Origin: Pleomorphomonas sp.
GTDB taxonomy: Bacteria > Pseudomonadota > Alphaproteobacteria > Rhizobiales > Pleomorphomonadaceae
Assembly: GCA_030603685.1 (NCBI GenBank)
Contig: JAUVXG010000015.1
Coordinates: forward strand, 1 to 45,035
Reading direction: 5' to 3'
Length of the DNA: 45,035 nucleotides
Of the stretch, positions 19,375 to 37,899 are shown in pieces. The notes beneath the pieces were generated by a model. That model saw only the letters and a list, made by a program, of their open reading frames with translations, was not told the origin of the DNA and did not search any database. Both the position numbers and the translations under genes were made by a program. The stretch's first letter is position 1; every line of letters starts with the position of its first letter.

Positions 19375-19585
19375 GGCGCCAGGCGCCATCGGCCTCGTTC
19401 GTGCGGGGCGACCACGCGGTTGCCTTTTCCGGTGGGCCATGGCAGTAACCTAAGCGTTCACACGGACCCGCCTCGCGGGTGGCTCTTCCGGCCGCCGATC
19501 CGCCGGACAATCTCTGACGACACGCGCGATTCACTCGCCTTTCCAGGGCGTGGCGTGGCCTGTCGTCTCGGGACGCAGAGATCCA

Positions 19586-28767: not shown

Positions 28768-30459
28768 TCAGCCCGCCATCGCCAGGCGTCGTCGGGACGG
28801 ATCGGGGATCGGAACGGCGTCGATCAGGCGTCGGGTGTAGTCCTGCCCGGGGTTTTCGAAGACGGCGCGGCGCGGGCCGTGTTCGACGATCCTGCCGCCG
28901 TTCATCACCGCGACGTCGTGCGACATGCGCTCGATGACCGCCATGTCGTGCGAGATGAACAGATAGGCCAGCCCCTCCGTCTCCTGAAGCTCCAGCATCA
29001 GATCGAGCACTTTGGCGCGAACCGACACGTCGAGCGCGGCGACGCTCTCGTCGGCGACGATCAGCTTGGGCTTTAGCGACAACGCACGGGCGATGCAGAT
29101 GCGCTGGCGCTGGCCGCCGGAAAACTCGTGCGGATAGCGGCTGGCCACATCCGGCGTCAGGCCGACGCGGCGCAACAGCTCCGCGACCCGGTCGGCGCGA
29201 TCGGACCTGTCGCCAATACCGTGGATCGCCATGGGCTCGGCAATGGCGGCGCCGACGGTCATGCGGCTGTCGAGCGAGGCATAGGGGTCCTGAAAGATCA
29301 TCTGGGCGAGGCGGCGAACCGGCCGCATCGCCTTGACCGAGAAGTCCATCAGCTCTTCGCCGCCGATGGCGACATAGCCTTCGTAGGGGATCAGGCCGAG
29401 CACGGCCTTGCCGGTGGTCGATTTGCCCGAGCCACTCTCGCCGACGAGGCCGAGCGTCCGCCCGGCCCTGAGCTCGAAGGAGACGCCGTCGACCGCGAGC
29501 TGGCCCGGCTTGCGACCGAACAGGCTGGCGCGGGCGCCGTAGGTGACCTTGAGATTGTTGACGGCGAGGACCGGTTCAAGCGACTTATCGGCTCGCGGCG
29601 CCGCCATCGCTTCCGCCGTGACAGCCGGCGGCCCATCGGTGCCGGCGCGGGCGCCGATGCGGGGGACGGCGGCGATCAGCTCGCGCGTGTAGGTCTGGGT
29701 CGGCTGTTCGAAAATGTCGACCGCCGAGCCGATCTCGACGAGGCGCCCATCCTTCATGACCGCGACCCGATCGGCCATCTCGGCGACGACGCCCATGTCG
29801 TGGGTGATCAGGATGGTGGACGTGCCGAACTCGCCCTTCAATTCTCGCATCAGCTTCAGGATCTGCGCCTGCACCGTAACGTCGAGAGCGGTGGTGGGTT
29901 CGTCGGCGATCAGCACCTTGGGCCGGCAGGACAGCGCCATGGCGATCATCACCCGCTGGCGCATGCCGCCCGAAAGCTCGTGCGGATACTGACCGAGGCG
30001 CCTTGCCGGTTCGGTGATCTGCACCGCATCCAGCATGCGCAGCGCCTGGGCGCGGGCGGAAGCTTCGTTGCCACCCTGGTGGATCAGAATTGGCTCCAGA
30101 AGCTGCTTGCCGATGGTCATCACCGGGTTGAGCGATGTCATCGGTTCCTGGAAGATCATGGCGATGTCGCGGCCACGCACCTCCCGCATGGTCCGCTCGC
30201 CGAGGGTGGTGAGGTCACGCTCCTCAAGCTTGATCGAGCCGGAGACGATGCGCAGCGAGGCGCGCGGCAGAAGCCGCATCACGGACAGCGACGTGACCGA
30301 CTTGCCGGAGCCGCTTTCGCCGGCCAGGCAGAGCGTCTCTCCCGCCGCCAGCTCGAAGCTCACGGCGTCGAGCACGCGCTTTGCCCCGCGATCGGTCAAC
30401 GCGTCGACGGTCAGCCCGTCGACGCTGAGAACCGGGGCTGCCCTGAAGTCTCCGCTCAT
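28768..30459 (-). CDS. Fused double ATP-binding protein of a peptide/nickel-type ABC importer
   Basis: A 563-residue fusion of two ABC ATPases (DppD-like and DppF-like). Each half is complete: half one has Walker A GESGSGKS, signature ELSGGMRQR and Walker [13 protein letters not shown]; half two has [30 protein letters not shown] and [12 protein letters not shown]. In half two the Walker B end is DESVAALD rather than the common DEPVSALD, the catalytic Glu being kept. It energises the two permeases encoded upstream. It is the last gene of the amiC operon, five bases after the acetamidase stop. An in-frame GTG at 30468 overlaps that stop (GTGA) and could be the real start. Confidence 0.93.
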
Positions 30460-30464
30460 ATCGG

Positions 30465-31409
30465 TCACTGGAGCACGATCCTTGGGAAATAGAAGCTCAC
30501 CACCACGTTCGGCATGTCGACGATCTCGGAAATGCGCAGATCGCCGGCCACTGAACAGAGCATGTAGGCGTCGGCCGGATTGTAGCCGTGCTCGGCGGCG
30601 AGAAGATCGATCATCCGGCTGAGCGCCTCGCGCGACGCGGTCAGCAGGTCGGGACCGACACCGGTGGTCACCTCGTAGCCGGCGGCGTCGAGATGGCGCG
30701 TCACAGGTCCCGGCGTGGTGAAGCGGGGGCTTTCGAGCGCCTGTCCCTTGAGAATGCTGAGCGTCAGCGTGACGTTCATGGCGCTTTCGATGGCGGTGCC
30801 GCAGACCTCGCCGTCGCCTTGGGCGGCGTGCGTGTCGCCGACCGAAAACAGGGCGCCCTCGACCTCGACCGGCAGATAGAGCGTAACGCCCGAGGAGAGA
30901 TCGCGGATGTCGAGATTGCCGCCGACGCGGCGTGGCGGAACGACCGAATGGACGCCCGGCTCGGCCGGGGCGACGCCGATGGTGCCGGCGAACGGCTTGA
31001 GCGGTACGCGGCCGCCGGGACCGAACAGCGAAGGCGCCATCGTGCCGGGCTCGTATGTCCAGACGTGCAGCGCCGGATCGGTGAACTGGTCGGCCAGGAG
31101 GCCGAAGCCGGGGATCACCGCCGTCCAGCCGATGCCCGAGGGAACGAACTCGCGAATCTCGACCTTCAGCACGTCGCCGGGTTCGGCGCCTTCCACATAG
31201 ATCGGACCGGTGACCGGGTTGACCTTGGCAAAGTCGAGGTTGACCACGTCGGCCACCGTCGAGCCCGTGCCGAGCTGACCGCCGGAACTGTCGAGACATT
31301 CGAAATGGATGGTCGAGCCGGATTTCGCCACGGCGGCAGGCGCGAAGTCGCGGCTCCAGCCATAATGATGATCGCGGCGATGGATGGTGTAGTCGCAGGC
31401 AACGCACAT
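30465..31409 (-). CDS. Acetamidase/formamidase family protein
   Basis: A 314-residue member of the FmdA/AmdA family, which hydrolyse formamide, acetamide or related short amides to the acid and ammonia. It starts with HHYGWSRDFAPA, then DSSGGQLGTGST near residue 40, PVTGPIYVEGAEPGDVLKV near 68-86 and the conserved GDTHAAQGDGEVCGTAIE near 190. No signal peptide, so it acts in the cytoplasm. ATG 31409 has GGGAG eight bases upstream. Lying between the substrate-binding protein and the ATPase of an importer, it should act on what that importer brings in. Confidence 0.92.
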   Translation of the reverse strand: MCVACDYTIHRRDHHYGWSRDFAPAAVAKSGSTIHFECLDSSGGQLGTGSTVADVVNLDFAKVNPVTGPIYVEGAEPGDVLKVEIREFVPSGIGWTAVIPGFGLLADQFTDPALHVWTYEPGTMAPSLFGPGGRVPLKPFAGTIGVAPAEPGVHSVVPPRRVGGNLDIRDLSSGVTLYLPVEVEGALFSVGDTHAAQGDGEVCGTAIESAMNVTLTLSILKGQALESPRFTTPGPVTRHLDAAGYEVTTGVGPDLLTASREALSRMIDLLAAEHGYNPADAYMLCSVAGDLRISEIVDMPNVVVSFYFPRIVLQ

Positions 31410-31491: not shown

Positions 31492-33108
31492 TTATTGCTT
31501 CACATAGATGGCGTCGTAGTTGATGACCCGCGTCGGGTCGATGTAGATGTTGCCCGGTCCGCCCATGCGCTTGGACTTGGCGACGACGCGGCGCTCGTTG
31601 AACACCGGGATCCACGGCGCGTCGGCCATCAGGTCGGTGAACACCGAACCCCAGAGCTTGGCGCGCTCGTCCTTCTTGGCCGGATCGGACATCGAGTCGG
31701 CCGCGATGGCGCGGGCGTCGAGATCCTTGTTGCAGTACCAGGACCAGTTCCAGCCGCCCTGAACGGCGCCGGCGCAGCCCAGGATCGGACCGTAGAAGTT
31801 CGAGGGATCGGGGAAGTCGGCGATCCAGGCCATGCCGCCCGACCAGATCATCGGCGCCTCGCCCTCGGTTCCACCGGCGGCGATGACGTTGGCGTTGGCC
31901 AGCGCCTTGATCTCGGCCTTGACGCCGATGGCGGCGAAATCCTGCTGCAGCGCTTGGGCGATGCGCGGGTTGGGATCGGTCGAGGAGGCGTAGAGCGCCG
32001 TGGTGAAGCCGTCCGGATAGCCGGCTTCGGCGAGCAGCGCCTTGGCCTTCTCGATGTCGTAGGCGTAGCCCTTGTAGTCCTTGTCGTAGCCGGGCATCAG
32101 TGGCGGCAGCGGCTGGTTGGCCGGCGTGGCTCTGCCGTTGACGATGCGGGTGATGCGCTCCTTGTTGACGGCCATGTTGAGGGCCTGGCGTACCTTGACG
32201 TCGTCGAGCGGCTTGACGCGGGTGTTGAGGGCGACGTAGCCGGTCTGCAACTGCTCGCCGTCGACGATGATGTCGGCGGCATCCGGGCCGTTCTTGATCT
32301 CGAGGAACTTGGCCGGCGGAATGCCGTCACCGGCGATGTCCACCTCGCCCTGCTGCAGGCGCAGCAGCGCCACCAGCGGCTCCTGGCCGACCTCGACGGT
32401 GAAGCCGTCGATCTTCGGCGTGTCGGCAACGTAGAAGTTCGGGTTCTTCTCGAACACCAGCTTCTGGCCGATCACCCAGTCCTTCAGCACGAAGGCGCCG
32501 GAGCCGACCGGCTTCTTGCCAAAGTCCTGGCCTTCCGCCTCGACCACTTCCTTGGGCACCACCGACGCGAAGTTGATGGCGAGGACGTGCAGGAAGGTGG
32601 CGTCGGGACGGCTGAGCTTGAAGATCACCGTCTGGTCGTCGGGAGTCTCGATGCCGGAGAGCCCCTCGGCCTTGCCGCCCGACATGTCGTCGAAGCCGGA
32701 GATGGCGCCGAAGAAGCCGGCGCCGGGGCCTTGCGTCTTGGGATTGACGGCGCGCTCGATGGAGTACTTGACGTCGGAGGCCACCACTTCGCGACCGTTG
32801 GAGAACTTCACGCCCTTGCGGAGCTTGAAGGTATAGGTCAGGCCGTCCGGCGAGATTTCGAAGCTCTCGGCCAGCGACGGCACCAGGTCGGCCGTTCCGG
32901 GCGTGTACTCCATCAGGCGGGAGAACAGGCTCTTGATCATCGACCAGTTCTGCCAGTCGTAGCCGATGGCCGGGTCGAGGGTGGCGATGTCGTCCTTGTA
33001 GGTGACGACGATGGTGGCGCCCTTGACGGGCGTCTCGTCGGCCAGCGCGGCGAGCGGCGTCAGCGCCATCAGTCCTGCGATCGCGGTTCTGTGCAGCCAG
33101 TGTGTCAT
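31492..33108 (-). CDS. ABC transporter substrate-binding protein, family 5 (peptide/nickel type)
   Basis: A 538-residue periplasmic protein. Residues 1-23 are a signal peptide (GLMALTPLAALA). The mature part has the family 5 layout: TLDPAIGYDWQNWSMIKSLF, the signature LVPSLAESFEISPDGLTYTFKLRKGVKFSNG near 78-108, and a long C-terminal lobe ending in VINYDAIYVKQ. Members bind peptides, heme, nickel or other solutes; the neighbours suggest an amide-bearing solute. ATG 33108 has GGGGAAC upstream. A GC-rich structured spacer separates it from the permease gene. Confidence 0.93.
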   Translation of the reverse strand: MTHWLHRTAIAGLMALTPLAALADETPVKGATIVVTYKDDIATLDPAIGYDWQNWSMIKSLFSRLMEYTPGTADLVPSLAESFEISPDGLTYTFKLRKGVKFSNGREVVASDVKYSIERAVNPKTQGPGAGFFGAISGFDDMSGGKAEGLSGIETPDDQTVIFKLSRPDATFLHVLAINFASVVPKEVVEAEGQDFGKKPVGSGAFVLKDWVIGQKLVFEKNPNFYVADTPKIDGFTVEVGQEPLVALLRLQQGEVDIAGDGIPPAKFLEIKNGPDAADIIVDGEQLQTGYVALNTRVKPLDDVKVRQALNMAVNKERITRIVNGRATPANQPLPPLMPGYDKDYKGYAYDIEKAKALLAEAGYPDGFTTALYASSTDPNPRIAQALQQDFAAIGVKAEIKALANANVIAAGGTEGEAPMIWSGGMAWIADFPDPSNFYGPILGCAGAVQGGWNWSWYCNKDLDARAIAADSMSDPAKKDERAKLWGSVFTDLMADAPWIPVFNERRVVAKSKRMGGPGNIYIDPTRVINYDAIYVKQ

Positions 33109-33243: not shown

Positions 33244-34164
33244 TTATCTGGCCCGTATTCTGGGATCGATCAGCGGGGCGACGAGATCGGCGATCAGGTT
33301 GCCGGTGACGATGGCCAGCGAAGAAATCAGCGTGACGCCCATGATGATGGGAATGTCGACCTGCTGGATCGCCTGCCAGGCGAGCTGGCCGATGCCGGGC
33401 CAGCCGTAGACGGCCTCAACCACCACCACGCCGCCCATGAACTGGCCGATGTCGATGCCGATCATGGCGACGATCGGCAGCAGCGCGTTGGGCACGGCAT
33501 GGCGCAGGATCACCGTGCGCTCGGCGACGCCCTTGGCGCGGGCCGTGCGGATGTAGTCCTGATTGAGGACGTCGATCATCGCCGAGCGGACCATGCGGGC
33601 GTACCAGCCGGCGCCGAGAACGCCGAGGGTCAACGCCGGCAGCACGACGTGGCTGAAGCCGCCGAAACCGGCCATCGGGAACCATTGCAGCGTTGCCGCG
33701 AAGACGTAGAGCAGCAGCAGGGCGACGACGAACTGCGGCGCCGACACGCCGATGAAGGACACCGTCATCACCAGCCGGTCGACGGCGCCGCCCCGGTTGA
33801 GGGCGGCGATGGTGCCGAGCGTCAGGCCGATCGCCACCTCCACCAGAATGCCGGAGACCATCAGGATCAGCGTCGCCGGCAGGCGGGCGAGGATGAGCGT
33901 CATCACCTCGGTTTTCTGGGTGTAGGAGCGACCGAGATCGCCCTGCACGAGGTTGCCGAGATAGTGGACGAACTGGACGATCAGCGGCTGGTCGAGGCCG
34001 AGCTCGTGGCGGATGTTGGCCACCGTCTGGGCGGTGGCCGAGCGGCCGGCGAGTTGCACGGCGGGGTCGGCCGGCAAGGCGTAGAGCAGCACGAAGGTGA
34101 TGGCGGCGACGCCGAACAGGATCATCAGGGCGCCGCCGAACCGGCGCAGGATCAGCTCGATCAT
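33244..34164 (-). CDS. ABC transporter permease, DppB type
   Basis: A 306-residue inner-membrane permease of the BPD_transp_1 family. TM1 is near residues 10-30 (GGALMILFGVAAITFVLLYAL), the N-terminal region has the usual GLDQPLIVQFVHYLGNLVQGDLGRS-type block, and the cytoplasmic EAA loop is RMVRSAMIDVLNQDYIRTARAKG near 195-215. Six helices are expected. It pairs with the DppC-type permease encoded immediately upstream with one base between the genes. Confidence 0.93.
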   Translation of the reverse strand: MIELILRRFGGALMILFGVAAITFVLLYALPADPAVQLAGRSATAQTVANIRHELGLDQPLIVQFVHYLGNLVQGDLGRSYTQKTEVMTLILARLPATLILMVSGILVEVAIGLTLGTIAALNRGGAVDRLVMTVSFIGVSAPQFVVALLLLYVFAATLQWFPMAGFGGFSHVVLPALTLGVLGAGWYARMVRSAMIDVLNQDYIRTARAKGVAERTVILRHAVPNALLPIVAMIGIDIGQFMGGVVVVEAVYGWPGIGQLAWQAIQQVDIPIIMGVTLISSLAIVTGNLIADLVAPLIDPRIRAR

Positions 34165-34165
34165 C

Positions 34166-35017
34166 TCACATTCTCCCGCGCTGGGTGGGGTCGAGGATGT
34201 CGCGCAAGGCGTCGCCGACCAGATTGAACGACAGCGCCGTCAGCAGGATGGCGATGCCGGGGAAGATCACCAGCCAGGGGGCCGCCGTGAAGAAGCTCTG
34301 GCTTTCGAAGATGATGTTGCCCCAGGAGGGTTCCGGCGGCTGCACGCCGACGCCAAGGAAGGACAGCGTCGCCTCCAGCAGCACGGTGGTGGCGATGCCG
34401 AGCGTGCCCCAGACGATGGCGGTCGGCACGAGATGGGGCAGGATATGCTTGAAGACGATGCGGGCGTGGCCGGCGCCCAGCGACCGCTCGGCGAGGATGA
34501 AGTCGCGCTCCACGAGGCCGCGCGTCTCGGTGTAGACGATGCGCGCCACCTGCACCCAGTTGACCATGGCGATCACCATGGCGACGATCCAGAGGCTGGG
34601 GTGGAACAGCGCCGCCAGCACGATGGCGAGCAGCAGGGCGGGAAAGGCCATCATCAGGTCGGTGAAGCGCATCAGCGCATTGCCGGCCGGGCCGCGCAGG
34701 TAACCGGCCAGCATGCCGATGCCGAGGCCGATGGTCACGGCCGTGCCGTTGGCGACGACGCCGATGATCAGCGAGGTGCGGGCGCCGAACAGCAGACGGG
34801 TCAGCAGGTCGCGGCCGAGCGTGTCGGTGCCGAGAAGAAAGACCGCGTCGGGGCCGATGGGGGCGCCTTCGAGGGTCAGGCCGTCGAACAGTTGCTCGTC
34901 CGGGGCGTAAGGCGCGATCAGGGGCGCCGCCAGGGCGCCGATCACCACAAGGAGAACGACGATCAGGCCGAAAACCGCCGTGGGCCGGCGCAGGAACTCA
35001 CGAAAGATGCGCTGCAT
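34166..35017 (-). CDS. ABC transporter permease, DppC type
   Basis: A 283-residue permease. It opens with REFLRRPTAVFGLIVVLLVV, typical of DppC/OppC, has LLGTDTLGRDLLTRLLFGAR near residue 60-80 and the EAA loop RGLVERDFILAERSLGAGHARI near 165-187. The start ATG 35017 overlaps the amiR stop by one base (TGATG), so it is translationally coupled to the regulator, strong evidence that regulator and transporter belong together. Confidence 0.93.
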   Translation of the reverse strand: MQRIFREFLRRPTAVFGLIVVLLVVIGALAAPLIAPYAPDEQLFDGLTLEGAPIGPDAVFLLGTDTLGRDLLTRLLFGARTSLIIGVVANGTAVTIGLGIGMLAGYLRGPAGNALMRFTDLMMAFPALLLAIVLAALFHPSLWIVAMVIAMVNWVQVARIVYTETRGLVERDFILAERSLGAGHARIVFKHILPHLVPTAIVWGTLGIATTVLLEATLSFLGVGVQPPEPSWGNIIFESQSFFTAAPWLVIFPGIAILLTALSFNLVGDALRDILDPTQRGRM

Positions 35018-35601
35018 CAGCCGGCCTCCGACAGAGGAATGACGCCGGCCAGCATCTCGGCGGCGGTTTGTTCGATGGTGATGCGGCGCTTCATGGCCGC
35101 GCGCCGTAGCGCCGCATAGGCGGCCTCCTCGTCACATCCGGACGCCATTTCGATCGCCCTGACGGCGGCATGCACCAGCGGCCGCATGCGAAGCCTCTCT
35201 TCGAGCCGCTCCATGCGGGCAGCCGCTTCGGCGGCGCGGGCATGCGCGGTGACGGCCAGCACCAGCGCCGGATAGACCGCGGCGGGCGCTACCGGCTTGG
35301 GCAGGATGGAAAGCGCGCCTTCCGAAATGGCCCAGGCCACCCGGCCCGGCGCTTCCGACTGCAGCAGTGCGACCACGGGGATCGGCGCCAGCTCGCCCGA
35401 CCAGGGCAACAAGCCCGACCAGCCCTGATCGGCGTCCACCAGCACGATGTCCGCCGGCGTTGCCTCCAGGTCCAGCGGCGTCCATTGCACGTTCGCCTCG
35501 AGGCCGAGCAGGCCAAGCTGACGGACAAGGCGACCGGTCCCCTCGTCGGGGCGATGGAGAACGACGGCCCTGAGGCCGACAAGGTCGGGGATCACCGTCA
35601 T
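35017..35601 (-). CDS. amiR: AmiR-like ANTAR-domain antiterminator
   Basis: A 194-residue regulator. Residues about 8-118 form a receiver-like domain (LRAVVLHRPDEG, DIVLVDADQGW, SILPKPV) that lacks a normal phosphorylation set, as in AmiR. A coiled coil (ARMERLEERLRMR) leads to the ANTAR domain (about 135-190: AVRAIEMASGCDEEAAYAALRRAAMKR in part), which binds paired RNA stem-loops. In Pseudomonas, AmiR is held inactive by AmiC until an amide binds, then antiterminates amidase mRNA. ATG 35601 overlaps the amiC stop (ATGA). The likely RNA target is the leader at 36766-36880. Confidence 0.85.
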   Translation of the reverse strand: MTVIPDLVGLRAVVLHRPDEGTGRLVRQLGLLGLEANVQWTPLDLEATPADIVLVDADQGWSGLLPWSGELAPIPVVALLQSEAPGRVAWAISEGALSILPKPVAPAAVYPALVLAVTAHARAAEAAARMERLEERLRMRPLVHAAVRAIEMASGCDEEAAYAALRRAAMKRRITIEQTAAEMLAGVIPLSEAG

Positions 35602-36737
35602 GAGACCACCCTCAGGCTGGATCGGCCGCCTTCGCGCGGCGCCGTCATGTAGGGGTCGGCCGCCATGGCCGGGCGGCTGGCGATGATGTCGAAGTTGCCA
35701 TCGTCTCGGATGCGGCCGAGGTGGAACGGCAGGGCCGCGTGGTTGGTCCGTGGGTCGATGCGCATCGGGCCGTGCGGCGTCTCGAACAGGCGGGCGTGGA
35801 CCGCCGCGCGCACGGCGGAGGGCTCGTCGCTTCCGGCGCCGCGTACCGCGTCCATCAGCATGTGAGCGGCGACATAGGCGCCTTCGACGAAGGACGAAAG
35901 CCGGCGATCCGGGCCGAAGGCCGCGGCGGCGCGTGCCCGGAAGCGCTCGTTCTCCGGCGTCGGCAAGGAGCCGAAATAGCTGGCGGCCGACAGATGACCG
36001 GTGGAAAGGCCAAGGCCGATCTCGCCGATCTCGGCCTCGGTGAGATCGCAGCTCACGACGGGGCGCACCTCCGGCCGGAAGGCGGGATCGGCATCGCCGA
36101 GCGCCTTGTAGGCCCTGAGGAAGGCATGGCTCGAAGGGCCGATCATGTTGTTGAGGACGAAGTCGGGGCGGCGGGCCTGGATGTCGGCGATCAAGCGGTC
36201 GACATCGGTTTCCTCGATGGGCAGACAGCGCTCGCCGACCACCTCGCCGCCGGCCTCTCTGAGCAGGTCGCGGGCGATGCGGTTCATCTCCCAGCCCCAG
36301 ACATAGTTGGCGCCGATGAGATAGACCCGCCGCCCCTGCCTTGGCAGCAGGTGCTCGAACAGCGGCATCAGGTGCTGGTTGGGGCAGGCGCCGGTATAGA
36401 TGACGTTCTCGTTGGCCTCGAAGCCCTCGTAGGGGCAGATGTACCAGAGCAGGCCGTCGTGCTTTTCGATGAGCGGGATGACTTCCTTGCGGGCGAGCGA
36501 GGTGATGGTTCCGACAATCAGGCGGCATCCGTCGCGCAGCATGGCGCGCGCCTGCTCCAGATAGGCGCGCGGCTCGCCCTCGGGATCGGCGTAGACCGGC
36601 TCGAAGGAAATCCCGCCGCTGCGATCGCCCGCCGCCTCGTCAAAGGCAAGCGCCGCCCCGTCGCGGCAGTCGCGCCCTATGGAGCTGTAGGGCCCCGTGC
36701 AGGAGAACAAGATCCCGACCTTGATCGTGCCGACCAT
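35598..36737 (-). CDS. amiC: AmiC-like amide sensor (periplasmic-binding-protein fold, cytoplasmic)
   Basis: A 379-residue protein of the AmiC / urea-short-chain-amide binding family. It begins directly with TIKVGILFSCTGPYSSIGRD, without a signal peptide, as AmiC does and as exported binding proteins do not. Other family blocks: DPEGEPRAYLEQARAML, RLIVGTITSLARKEVIPLIEK, PNQHLMPLFEHLL and YVWGWEMNRIARDLL. ATG 36737 has GAGG six bases upstream; the frame is open to 36782 but that part covers the terminator stem. AmiC senses amides and releases AmiR. The coupled amiR gene follows with a 4-bp overlap. Ligand identity cannot be read from sequence. Confidence 0.88.
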   Translation of the reverse strand: MVGTIKVGILFSCTGPYSSIGRDCRDGAALAFDEAAGDRSGGISFEPVYADPEGEPRAYLEQARAMLRDGCRLIVGTITSLARKEVIPLIEKHDGLLWYICPYEGFEANENVIYTGACPNQHLMPLFEHLLPRQGRRVYLIGANYVWGWEMNRIARDLLREAGGEVVGERCLPIEETDVDRLIADIQARRPDFVLNNMIGPSSHAFLRAYKALGDADPAFRPEVRPVVSCDLTEAEIGEIGLGLSTGHLSAASYFGSLPTPENERFRARAAAAFGPDRRLSSFVEGAYVAAHMLMDAVRGAGSDEPSAVRAAVHARLFETPHGPMRIDPRTNHAALPFHLGRIRDDGNFDIIASRPAMAADPYMTAPREGGRSSLRVVS

Positions 36738-36765
36738 TGCAAACCTCAACGCAACGACCAATGCG

Positions 36766-36822
36766 AAAAAGCCCCACGACACGCTCCGGCTCGCTCGAAC
36801 GAACGCCGAAAGGTCATGGGGC
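36766..36822 (-). terminator. amiC: Leader intrinsic terminator before amiC
   Basis: On the minus strand GCCCCATGAC (36822-36813) pairs over all 10 positions (one U-G) with GTCGTGGGGC (36780-36771), followed at once by TTTTT (36770-36766). The 32-nt loop itself folds (CGGC with GCCG, GTTC with GAGC). It lies about 30 bp before the amiC ATG, between promoter and gene, so it must be bypassed for expression. Confidence 0.85.
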
Positions 36823-36880
36823 CATGCTGCCCGTTGCTCTGGAAGAGCTCATGTCATGGGCGCGATGATCTGCAGCCCAT
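36819..36880 (-). promoter_or_regulatory. amiC: Candidate ANTAR-target tandem hairpins in amiC leader
   Basis: Hairpin 1 (36880-36856) has arms ATGGGC and GCCCAT. Hairpin 2 (36832-36819) is GGGC-AGCATG-GCCC with a six-base loop starting with A. Both hairpins are followed by AUGAC-type sequence, so they look like a repeated module. Hairpin 2 uses GCCC, the 5' arm of the terminator stem, so the two structures exclude each other, as in known ANTAR sites. The known loop consensus has G at position 4; here it is A. Confidence 0.55.
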
Positions 36881-36893
36881 CAATTAGGCATGA

Positions 36894-36923
36894 ATGCTAA
36901 CTGAGCTTCTTTGCCGCTGTCAA
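36894..36923 (-). promoter_or_regulatory. amiC: Candidate promoter of the amiC operon
   Basis: On the minus strand TTGACA (36923-36918), an 18-bp spacer and TAGCAT (36899-36894) make a good sigma70-type promoter. Transcription would begin near 36887, leaving a leader of about 150 nt before amiC. Confidence 0.65.
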
Positions 36924-37002
36924 GGATGGAAAGAGCGGCAGCGATACCCTGCTGTTGGTGCCCTGCCTGTTTCGGGGGCATGATGGCGAGGTGCTCGGGA
37001 AT

Positions 37003-37899
37003 TCAGCCGCCTTCGTTCATCTCCTCCACCTGTGCATAGAGCCACTCGACGAAACGCGTCACTTCCGGCTTGGGGCGCAGGCGATCTCGGCGGACGACAT
37101 AGAGGTCGTCGACGCCGGTGACGACGGTGAACGGCGCCACGAGCCGGCCGAGGCTGACGTCGTTGCCGATCAGCGACAGGTCGCCGATGGCGAAGCCGCG
37201 ACCGGTCTCGGCGGCGCGCAAGGCCGTGTCCATGGTGTCGAAGATCTCGCCATGCTCGACGTCGAGGCCACTGTTGTCGAAGGCCTTGTTCACCCAGCGC
37301 TTCCAGTCGGCAAAGCCGGCGCCGTGCAGGATCTGGCCGCGCCGGATCTGCTCGATCGGATCGAGATGGGCGACGGTCTGGTAATAGGCGGGCGAGCAGA
37401 CCGGCGTCAGCCGTTCCATCAGGAAGGGCATCATCTCCTCAGGTGGCCACTGGCGCGATCTGTAGAGGATGCCGACGTCGTTCTCGACGTCGCTGGGGTC
37501 CATGTTCTCCCACAACACCGATACGCGGACGGTGAGGTCGGGGTTGGCCGTCTCGAAGCTCCTGAGGCGCGGCAGCAGCCAGCGGGCGCCGAAGGTGGGC
37601 GGCGTGCGGACGCGGACGACGCCGGGGCGGGCGCGGATCTGTTCGACGCCGCGCCGGATCGCCTCGAAGGCGGTGCCGAGCGACAGCGCCAGCTGTTCGC
37701 CCTCAGGCGACAGGCGGACGCCGCGATGGACGCGGCGGAACAGCTCGACGCGCAGATCGTCCTCCAGGGCGCGAATCTGCCGGCTGACGGCGCTCTCGGT
37801 GACGTTGAGCTCCTCGGCGGCGCGGTTGAGGGCGCCGAGGCGGGCGACGCTTTCGAAAGCCTTGAGGGCGTTGAGGCTGGGCAGGCGGCTGACGGCCAC
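37003..37899 (-). CDS. LysR-family regulator, GcvA subgroup
   Basis: A 298-residue LysR protein with the GcvA-type N-terminus LPSLNALKAFESVARLGALNRAAEELNVT in outline (residues about 6-34), recognition helix ESAVSRQIRALED and VELFRRVHRGVRLSPEG. The effector domain follows. GTG 37899 was preferred over GTG 37908 because GGGGAG is eight bases from it and almost touching the other. It lies upstream of the amiC operon on the same strand, 266 bp from amiC, with its own-operon promoter between, so it need not regulate it. Its target is unknown. Confidence 0.9.
   Translation of the reverse strand: MAVSRLPSLNALKAFESVARLGALNRAAEELNVTESAVSRQIRALEDDLRVELFRRVHRGVRLSPEGEQLALSLGTAFEAIRRGVEQIRARPGVVRVRTPPTFGARWLLPRLRSFETANPDLTVRVSVLWENMDPSDVENDVGILYRSRQWPPEEMMPFLMERLTPVCSPAYYQTVAHLDPIEQIRRGQILHGAGFADWKRWVNKAFDNSGLDVEHGEIFDTMDTALRAAETGRGFAIGDLSLIGNDVSLGRLVAPFTVVTGVDDLYVVRRDRLRPKPEVTRFVEWLYAQVEEMNEGG

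Follow-up and report, generated by a model that had tools for sequence, protein, structure and literature searches.

The amiC-amiR operon and its leader

On the minus strand of the window (the whole stretch of Pleomorphomonas sp. DNA that was analysed, 45,035 nucleotides), a LysR-type gene is followed by a promoter and a leader of about 120 nt, and then by amiC, amiR and a series of transporter and amidase genes (Table 1). The LysR-type gene upstream of the leader is read in the same direction and ends at 37003. The sequence-only reading that preceded this analysis took the second gene of the operon to encode an ANTAR protein, and the AmiR_N and ANTAR domains of its product do score above their Pfam cut-offs (36.1 bits against 27, and 32.6 against 27.3); the protein also matches P. 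aeruginosa AmiR (E 4.7e-11) and adjoins an AmiC homologue. The FmdA_AmdA protein, at 136.1 bits, falls far below the NCBIfam formamidase cut-off of 500. Among named relatives, Pleomorphomonas strains have the closest AmiC. Elsewhere in the window, Rfam sul1 RNA (RF03058) is matched at 19461-19512 on the plus strand (66.5 bits, E 4.8e-10).

Table 1. Positions of the leader elements and operon genes in the window
Feature	Position	Strand	Remarks
Sigma-70-type promoter	36894-36923	-	TTGACA 36923-36918, 18-nt spacer, TAGCAT 36899-36894
Imperfect 17-bp dyad GC-N11-GC, candidate DNA operator	36874-36890		around the expected +1
5' hairpin A (AUGGGC...GCCCAU)	36855-36881	-	exists here; sequence not kept in relatives
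Hairpin B (GCUCU-UCC-AGAGC), P1-like	36836-36848	-	covarying stem; loop of 3-8 nt without consensus
P2 antiterminator hairpin (GGGC-AGCAUG-GCCC)	36819-36832	-	hexaloop with A1, without G4
Intrinsic terminator	36766-36822	-	opens with the four bases of the P2 3' arm
amiC, amide/urea-type binding protein	35598-36737	-	Peripla_BP_5; matches P. aeruginosa AmiC 1pea, E 8.5e-52
amiR, AmiR_N pseudo-receiver and ANTAR	35017-35601	-	Val in place of EutV Lys149; overlaps the amiC stop codon
dppC-type ABC permease	34166-35017	-	
dppB-type ABC permease	33244-34164	-	
Family 5 solute-binding protein	31492-33108	-	
Acetamidase/formamidase family protein (FmdA_AmdA)	30465-31409	-	
Fused DppD-DppF type ABC ATPase	28768-30483	-	

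The same reading had proposed a TTGACA/TAGCAT promoter, an intrinsic terminator shortly before amiC and a hairpin that would be mutually exclusive with it, and all three are borne out. The promoter has 10 of 12 consensus matches and is the one such site in 36500-37100, where shuffled sequences have a mean of 0.2. The 10-bp terminator stem pairs GCCCCAUGAC (36822-36813) with GUCGUGGGGC (36780-36771) and is followed by U5 (36770-36766), which leaves 28 nt to the amiC ATG (36737). GCCC (36822-36819) is common to P2 and the 5' arm of the terminator. The P2 loop was also read correctly, with A at position 1 (A1) and A at position 4. A simple terminator scan does not list this terminator; the scan presumably needs an uninterrupted stem and a short loop, and the terminator does appear in the folds.

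The fold of 36890-36737 is better than expected from shuffled versions of the stretch (z -3.05), of which 2 in 200 do as well. With transcription assumed to start at 36887, RNA ending at P2 is predicted to fold as hairpins A, B and P2 (-24.0 kcal/mol), and the full leader as A, B and the terminator (-51.5 kcal/mol). When P2 is formed in these folds, the GCCCC/GGGGC pairs beside the U-tract are lost. The folding energy of the terminator dwarfs that of P2, and in a predicted 93-nt intermediate P2 is retained and hairpin B is rearranged.

The dyad around the expected start site begins about 3 bp past the -10 box, its left half being like TGCCTAAT and its right half like ATTAGGCA. In 70 of the 81 leaders described below it is 31-33 nt away from where the TTGAC box begins, its place in each having been picked as the best half-site fit, and it is unrecognisable in the Mesorhizobium-type leaders among them. 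Because its inner arms are seldom complementary, the dyad is more likely a DNA operator than an RNA stem. Directly 5' of hairpin B, the sequence ACA (ACAU, 36851-36854) is at least 90% conserved over the 81 leaders, although it does not regularly open into a start codon, and is a possible contact site for protein or RNA.

Conservation and covariation of the leader

The best 80 of 150 AmiC matches in the genome collection were taken as relatives, giving 81 leaders with that of the window. By record titles the 80 come from Rhizobiales genera or MAGs, one being titled only "Proteobacteria". The amiC, amiR, dppC and dppB frames occur together in all 80 loci and the binding protein in 79; the gene order of the window is found in 77, and the other three (L041, L049, L072) are sorted otherwise by crude frame starts. 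In each of the 81 leaders, a TTGAC box precedes the start of the AmiC match by 147-191 nt, and a terminator comes after a GGGCA/AGGCA hairpin; the U-tract of the terminator is interrupted or shifted in nine Mesorhizobium-type leaders (UUUG, or UUUU after CC).

One might suppose that the terminator merely insulates the operon from the gene upstream and regulates nothing, as the co-directional LysR-type gene, ending at 37003, could suggest. However, a TTGAC box stands between that gene and the terminator in the window and precedes the terminator in 81 of 81 leaders. The upstream neighbours also vary between genomes (80 loci), and yet the P2 overlap and A1 are maintained. Insulation of this kind is extremely unlikely.

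Covariation was scored over a shorter aligned stretch in 53 leaders less than 93% alike, for pairs that were named after the sequences had been seen. Two-sided changes occur at 9 of 16 pairs in the terminator, which scores 0.277 (shuffles 0.184, none of 500 as high), and at every one of the four pairs counted in hairpin B. Hairpin B and P2 together score 0.204, against 0.120 in shuffles (0 of 500 as high); of the five covariation measures, one, the count of pair types, puts them no higher than shuffles (208 of 500). P2 is paired in 53 of 53 leaders; its outer pair is G-C, G-U or A-U, and its arms in deeper relatives are GGC/GCC or AGC/GCU. Because the other three of its four pairs are invariant, the evidence for P2 pairing comes from this single position plus the deeper relatives. 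RNAalifold run on the whole alignment finds P2 together with a portion of the terminator that is shifted (10 pairs, 2 two-sided), and it does not recover hairpin B, which is also unexceptional in single sequences, where on average 29% of shuffles have a stem as long.

These results change the choice of hairpins. The sequence-only reading had paired two look-alikes, each GGGC...GCCC followed by AUGAC, as the ANTAR target. Both are present, the first at 36878-36858, but the sequence of the first and its AUGAC tail are lost in relatives outside the nearest group, and hairpin A was rejected as P1. The better partner of P2 is the covarying hairpin B (36848-36836), which had been overlooked. The covariation that had been proposed as a check is seen in related genomes for the terminator and for the hairpin just upstream of P2. 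What stands is the P2/terminator switch ahead of the amiC-amiR and transporter/amidase operon, which both conservation and covariation support: by sequence, covariation and folding there are two hairpins, and formation of the second excludes that of an intrinsic terminator, as in an ANTAR target.

Distribution across genomes

A covariance search for the leader upstream of amiC-amiR homologues had also been suggested, and was carried out with a model built from hairpin B and the terminator. In the genome of the window there is one strong match (E 4e-13; the next best, 4.3). Of 249 genomes from the order, nine, counting the window's own, have a single match, in every case directly upstream of amiC; this search used stricter filters, and 9 is a lower bound. 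Eight of 17 chosen genomes (16 of the family and one other) matched at E 1.0e-11 or better. Six leader-bearing genomes have no ANTAR match besides AmiR at E 0.001 (G404, G409, G412, G414, G416 and G451; draft or complete, mostly drafts, with G409 89% complete).

Covarying hairpins and a terminator alone name no effector, and the same anatomy could serve attenuation by something other than AmiR, such as a leader peptide, a riboswitch or another RNA-binding protein. In 64 of 81 leaders an AUG closely precedes hairpin B and might mark the start of a leader peptide. However, it is missing in 17 leaders, and in the other 64 the preceding 14 nt contain no Shine-Dalgarno-like tetramer. The frames that it opens stop after 11 to 180 codons, three of them having no stop in 900 nt; relative to amiC, 18 are in frame, and 24 and 22 are not. 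The leader peptide was rejected because no frame is conserved. As for a riboswitch, the leader has no Rfam match at gathering level and no meaningful one up to E 10. Nor is there a strong leader match without the regulator: in the three family members in which AmiR was not detected (G402, G406, G410), the best leader matches reach only E 0.05, 4.8 and 8.7. An effector other than AmiR is distinctly unlikely.

More distant, window-like AmiRs are found in a deeper set of 21 loci (L138-L149, L151-L158, L184); outside this set were left L150, L159 and L161, which are of the core type, and L137, whose AmiR is of another type. The deeper loci represent other leader types, which the covariance model scores poorly or to which it was not applied. 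The leader plan is shared by 19 of the 21 (16 by an automatic rule, L152 by another rule, L141 and L143 by eye), and no leader precedes amiC in L148 and L149. On the opposite strands of all 102 regions, the automatic rule, which does not demand A1, gave 12 matches, their first base being A in 6, G in 4, C in 1 and T in 1. One of the 19 deeper leaders, L153, is from outside the class (Alphaproteobacteria). The leader on the amide-uptake operon appears to span Rhizobiales and other Alphaproteobacteria.

Among 13 stretches, the downstream set of dppC, dppB, binding protein, FmdA and ATPase is also found in L186, L187, L189 and L195, with variations in others; in two named plasmids, FmdA and the ATPase come after. 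The amiC and amiR genes, overlapping in the window, are about 1.1 kb apart in L196 (genome G414), with an extra reading frame between them.

Loop bases and the ANTAR residues that read them

In the EutV-RNA structure, the G at position 4 of the hexaloop (G4) is contacted by Tyr164, Arg142, Lys149 and Glu160 (PMC8934654). Both sides of this contact were followed through the relatives. All 81 P2 loops fit a pattern requiring A1 and a purine at position 2: AGUUUC in 43, AGCAUG in 15, AGUUUG in 10, AACAGC in 5, AGCGUG in 2, and six singletons. When A1 is not required, the pattern finds 79 of the 81, each including an A1 loop and five with an extra stray match. G4 is missing in 79 of the 81 core leaders and present in 2; the 19 deeper leaders all have A1, and one, L153, has G4.

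The hexaloop and its A1 are confined to P2, as hairpin B in the set of 53 has loops of 3-8 nt with no consensus (hairpin B was picked as the longest stem, which in a few leaders, e.g. L023, is not the intended hairpin). The gap between B and P2 is 2-3 nt in 46 of 53 leaders, and in one more if a terminal U-G pair is not counted, shorter than the linker of about 5-12 nt given for EutV targets (PMC3369931). This weighs against the model given below, as a 3-nt linker drastically reduced EutV-dependent induction (PMC3369931).

On the protein side, EutV numbering was transferred to the AmiRs by matching Tyr164, Arg168 and Met172. Lys149 is replaced in 81 of 81 AmiRs (V in 69, M in 9, I in 3) and the other positions are kept (Arg142 in 81, Glu160 in 80, Tyr164 in 80, Met172 in 81), so that the complete EutV-type G4 pocket of Arg142, Lys149, Glu160 and Tyr164 occurs in 0 of 81. 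In 20 deeper AmiRs (without L184), position 149 is V in 14, T in 4, Q in 1 and G in 1, and Tyr164 is present in 11; L156 is badly aligned within this set. The suspicion raised by the loop of the window, that recognition may differ, therefore holds generally. G4 and Lys149 appear to have been lost together in this branch, possibly by a single ancestral change; three leaders (L007, L009, L153) have G4 loops despite the missing lysine.

These counts bear on whether the leader could still be a canonical one, with two A1/G4 hexaloops, like those of eut, nas and amiE, recognised by AmiR or a NasT-like protein. The position is alike, P2 shares the terminator arm and an ANTAR gene lies within the operon; moreover, the genome encodes a second ANTAR protein, NasT-like, with the full EutV-type residue set (R142, K143, K149, E160 and Y164, read off the translation). 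However, neither the general lack of G4 nor the consensus-free loops of hairpin B fit such a leader, and in the six leader-bearing genomes named above no ANTAR protein other than AmiR was detected. A search for A1/G4 pairs picked out L135 and L136 and found none in the window-like amiC leaders that it covered. The canonical reading is very unlikely. A further A1/G4 match in L149 was discounted, being 3.4 kb from amiC and having a poor P2.

Eleven loci with Lys149 AmiRs were examined (L122, L124, L125, L137, L197-L201, L203, L204). A1/G4 in both hexaloops on a terminator occurs in 3 of the 11, L197-L199, of which the near-identical L197 and L198 correspond to L135 and L136. The other eight have no canonical leader in the stretches examined, which cover about 11 kb upstream and little downstream for L122, L124, L125 and L137, and 1.5 kb on each side for L200, L201, L203 and L204. 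In L135, L136 and L199, the dual-hexaloop terminators lie directly behind amiR, and so the regulator genes are outside the switch there. Another AmiR group (L123, L126-L131, L133, L134, L205, L206, L208) has T for Met172 and V, T, I or S at 149, and no A1/G4 leader was found in the stretches examined for it.

On balance, we lean towards an ANTAR branch with a changed RNA code, in which Lys149 and G4 were lost together and the regulator recognises one C:G-closed A1 hexaloop and a sequence-free hairpin.

A model for the switch

The leader is most likely an AmiR-dependent transcription antiterminator of its own operon, in which the contact between protein and RNA has changed. Sequence shows the anatomy, conservation and covariation of the leader, its single genomic copy, its co-occurrence with amiR and the changed residues; AmiR binding, the role of AmiC, the inducer and the feedback are inferred.

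RNA polymerase would start at the conserved promoter. Without inducer, AmiR would be held by AmiC, and most transcripts would end at the terminator before amiC; that AmiC sequesters AmiR until ligand binding is suggested by the established AmiC-AmiR system (PMC3369936). Binding of an amide-like ligand by AmiC would free AmiR, and the AmiR dimer would grip hairpin B and P2. P2 would then capture the GCCC of the terminator stem, so that the pairs next to the U-tract are gone. P2 would be read via its C:G-closed hexaloop with A1, and hairpin B as a helix or not at all. Transcription would thereby extend through amiC-amiR and the genes of the Dpp-type transporter and FmdA-type amidase, which would amplify the response. 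The switch precedes both regulator genes, so the circuit should be self-reinforcing, and self-activation of the operon is probable.

Relationship to known ANTAR systems

ANTAR antitermination has been known as a mechanism class since AmiR and NasR. The leader described here would be an altered version of it, in which the RNA base and the protein residue of recognition have both been lost. No description of this leader was found in the literature searched, and the Ramesh 2012 survey may list some of the loci. The first large search for ANTAR targets required A1 and G4 in two hexaloops (PMC3369931), and a later actinobacterial survey allowed more variety, the A and G of the loops being only >50% conserved (PMC8164766). 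Loop departures thus have precedents; here the departure is consistent within a branch and paired with a protein change, and so the code can be tested by a one-residue/one-base swap between two natural pairs. If the changed code is true, searches for A1/G4 dual hexaloops would miss this branch. The finding would also give a widespread rhizobial amide uptake operon a regulator and an RNA switch.

The EutV-eut and NasR-nasF leaders resemble that of the window in having two small hairpins, the second of which excludes the terminator, and a C:G-closed A1 hexaloop. They differ in that G4 is absent here, the gap between hairpin B and P2 is mostly 2-3 nt rather than 5-12 nt, and Lys149 is replaced. 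By residue spacing, Lys149 would correspond to K347 of NasR, and the K347R change in NasR gave about 10-fold weaker binding (PMC7496416). The paralogous amiC-amiR loci of the K149 type, L197-L199, also have an AmiR homologue and a P2 that overlaps a terminator, but their leaders lie downstream of amiR and carry A1/G4 in both hexaloops (AACGAC/AACGGA; AAUGAC/AAUGUU).

With the P. aeruginosa AmiC-AmiR/amiE system, the window shares adjoining AmiC and AmiR homologues, a hairpin overlapping an intrinsic terminator and an amide-type enzyme in the operon. Both amiE hexaloops carry A1 and G4 (PMC3369931, PMC3369936), whereas here G4 is absent, hairpin B has no consensus loop and Lys149 is gone. P. 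aeruginosa AmiR itself has Q and H at 142 and 164, so the G4 pocket is no strict rule for AmiRs. Finally, the leader of the window lies directly before amiC, unlike that of P. aeruginosa, and a Dpp-type transporter and an FmdA-type protein take the place of AmiE.
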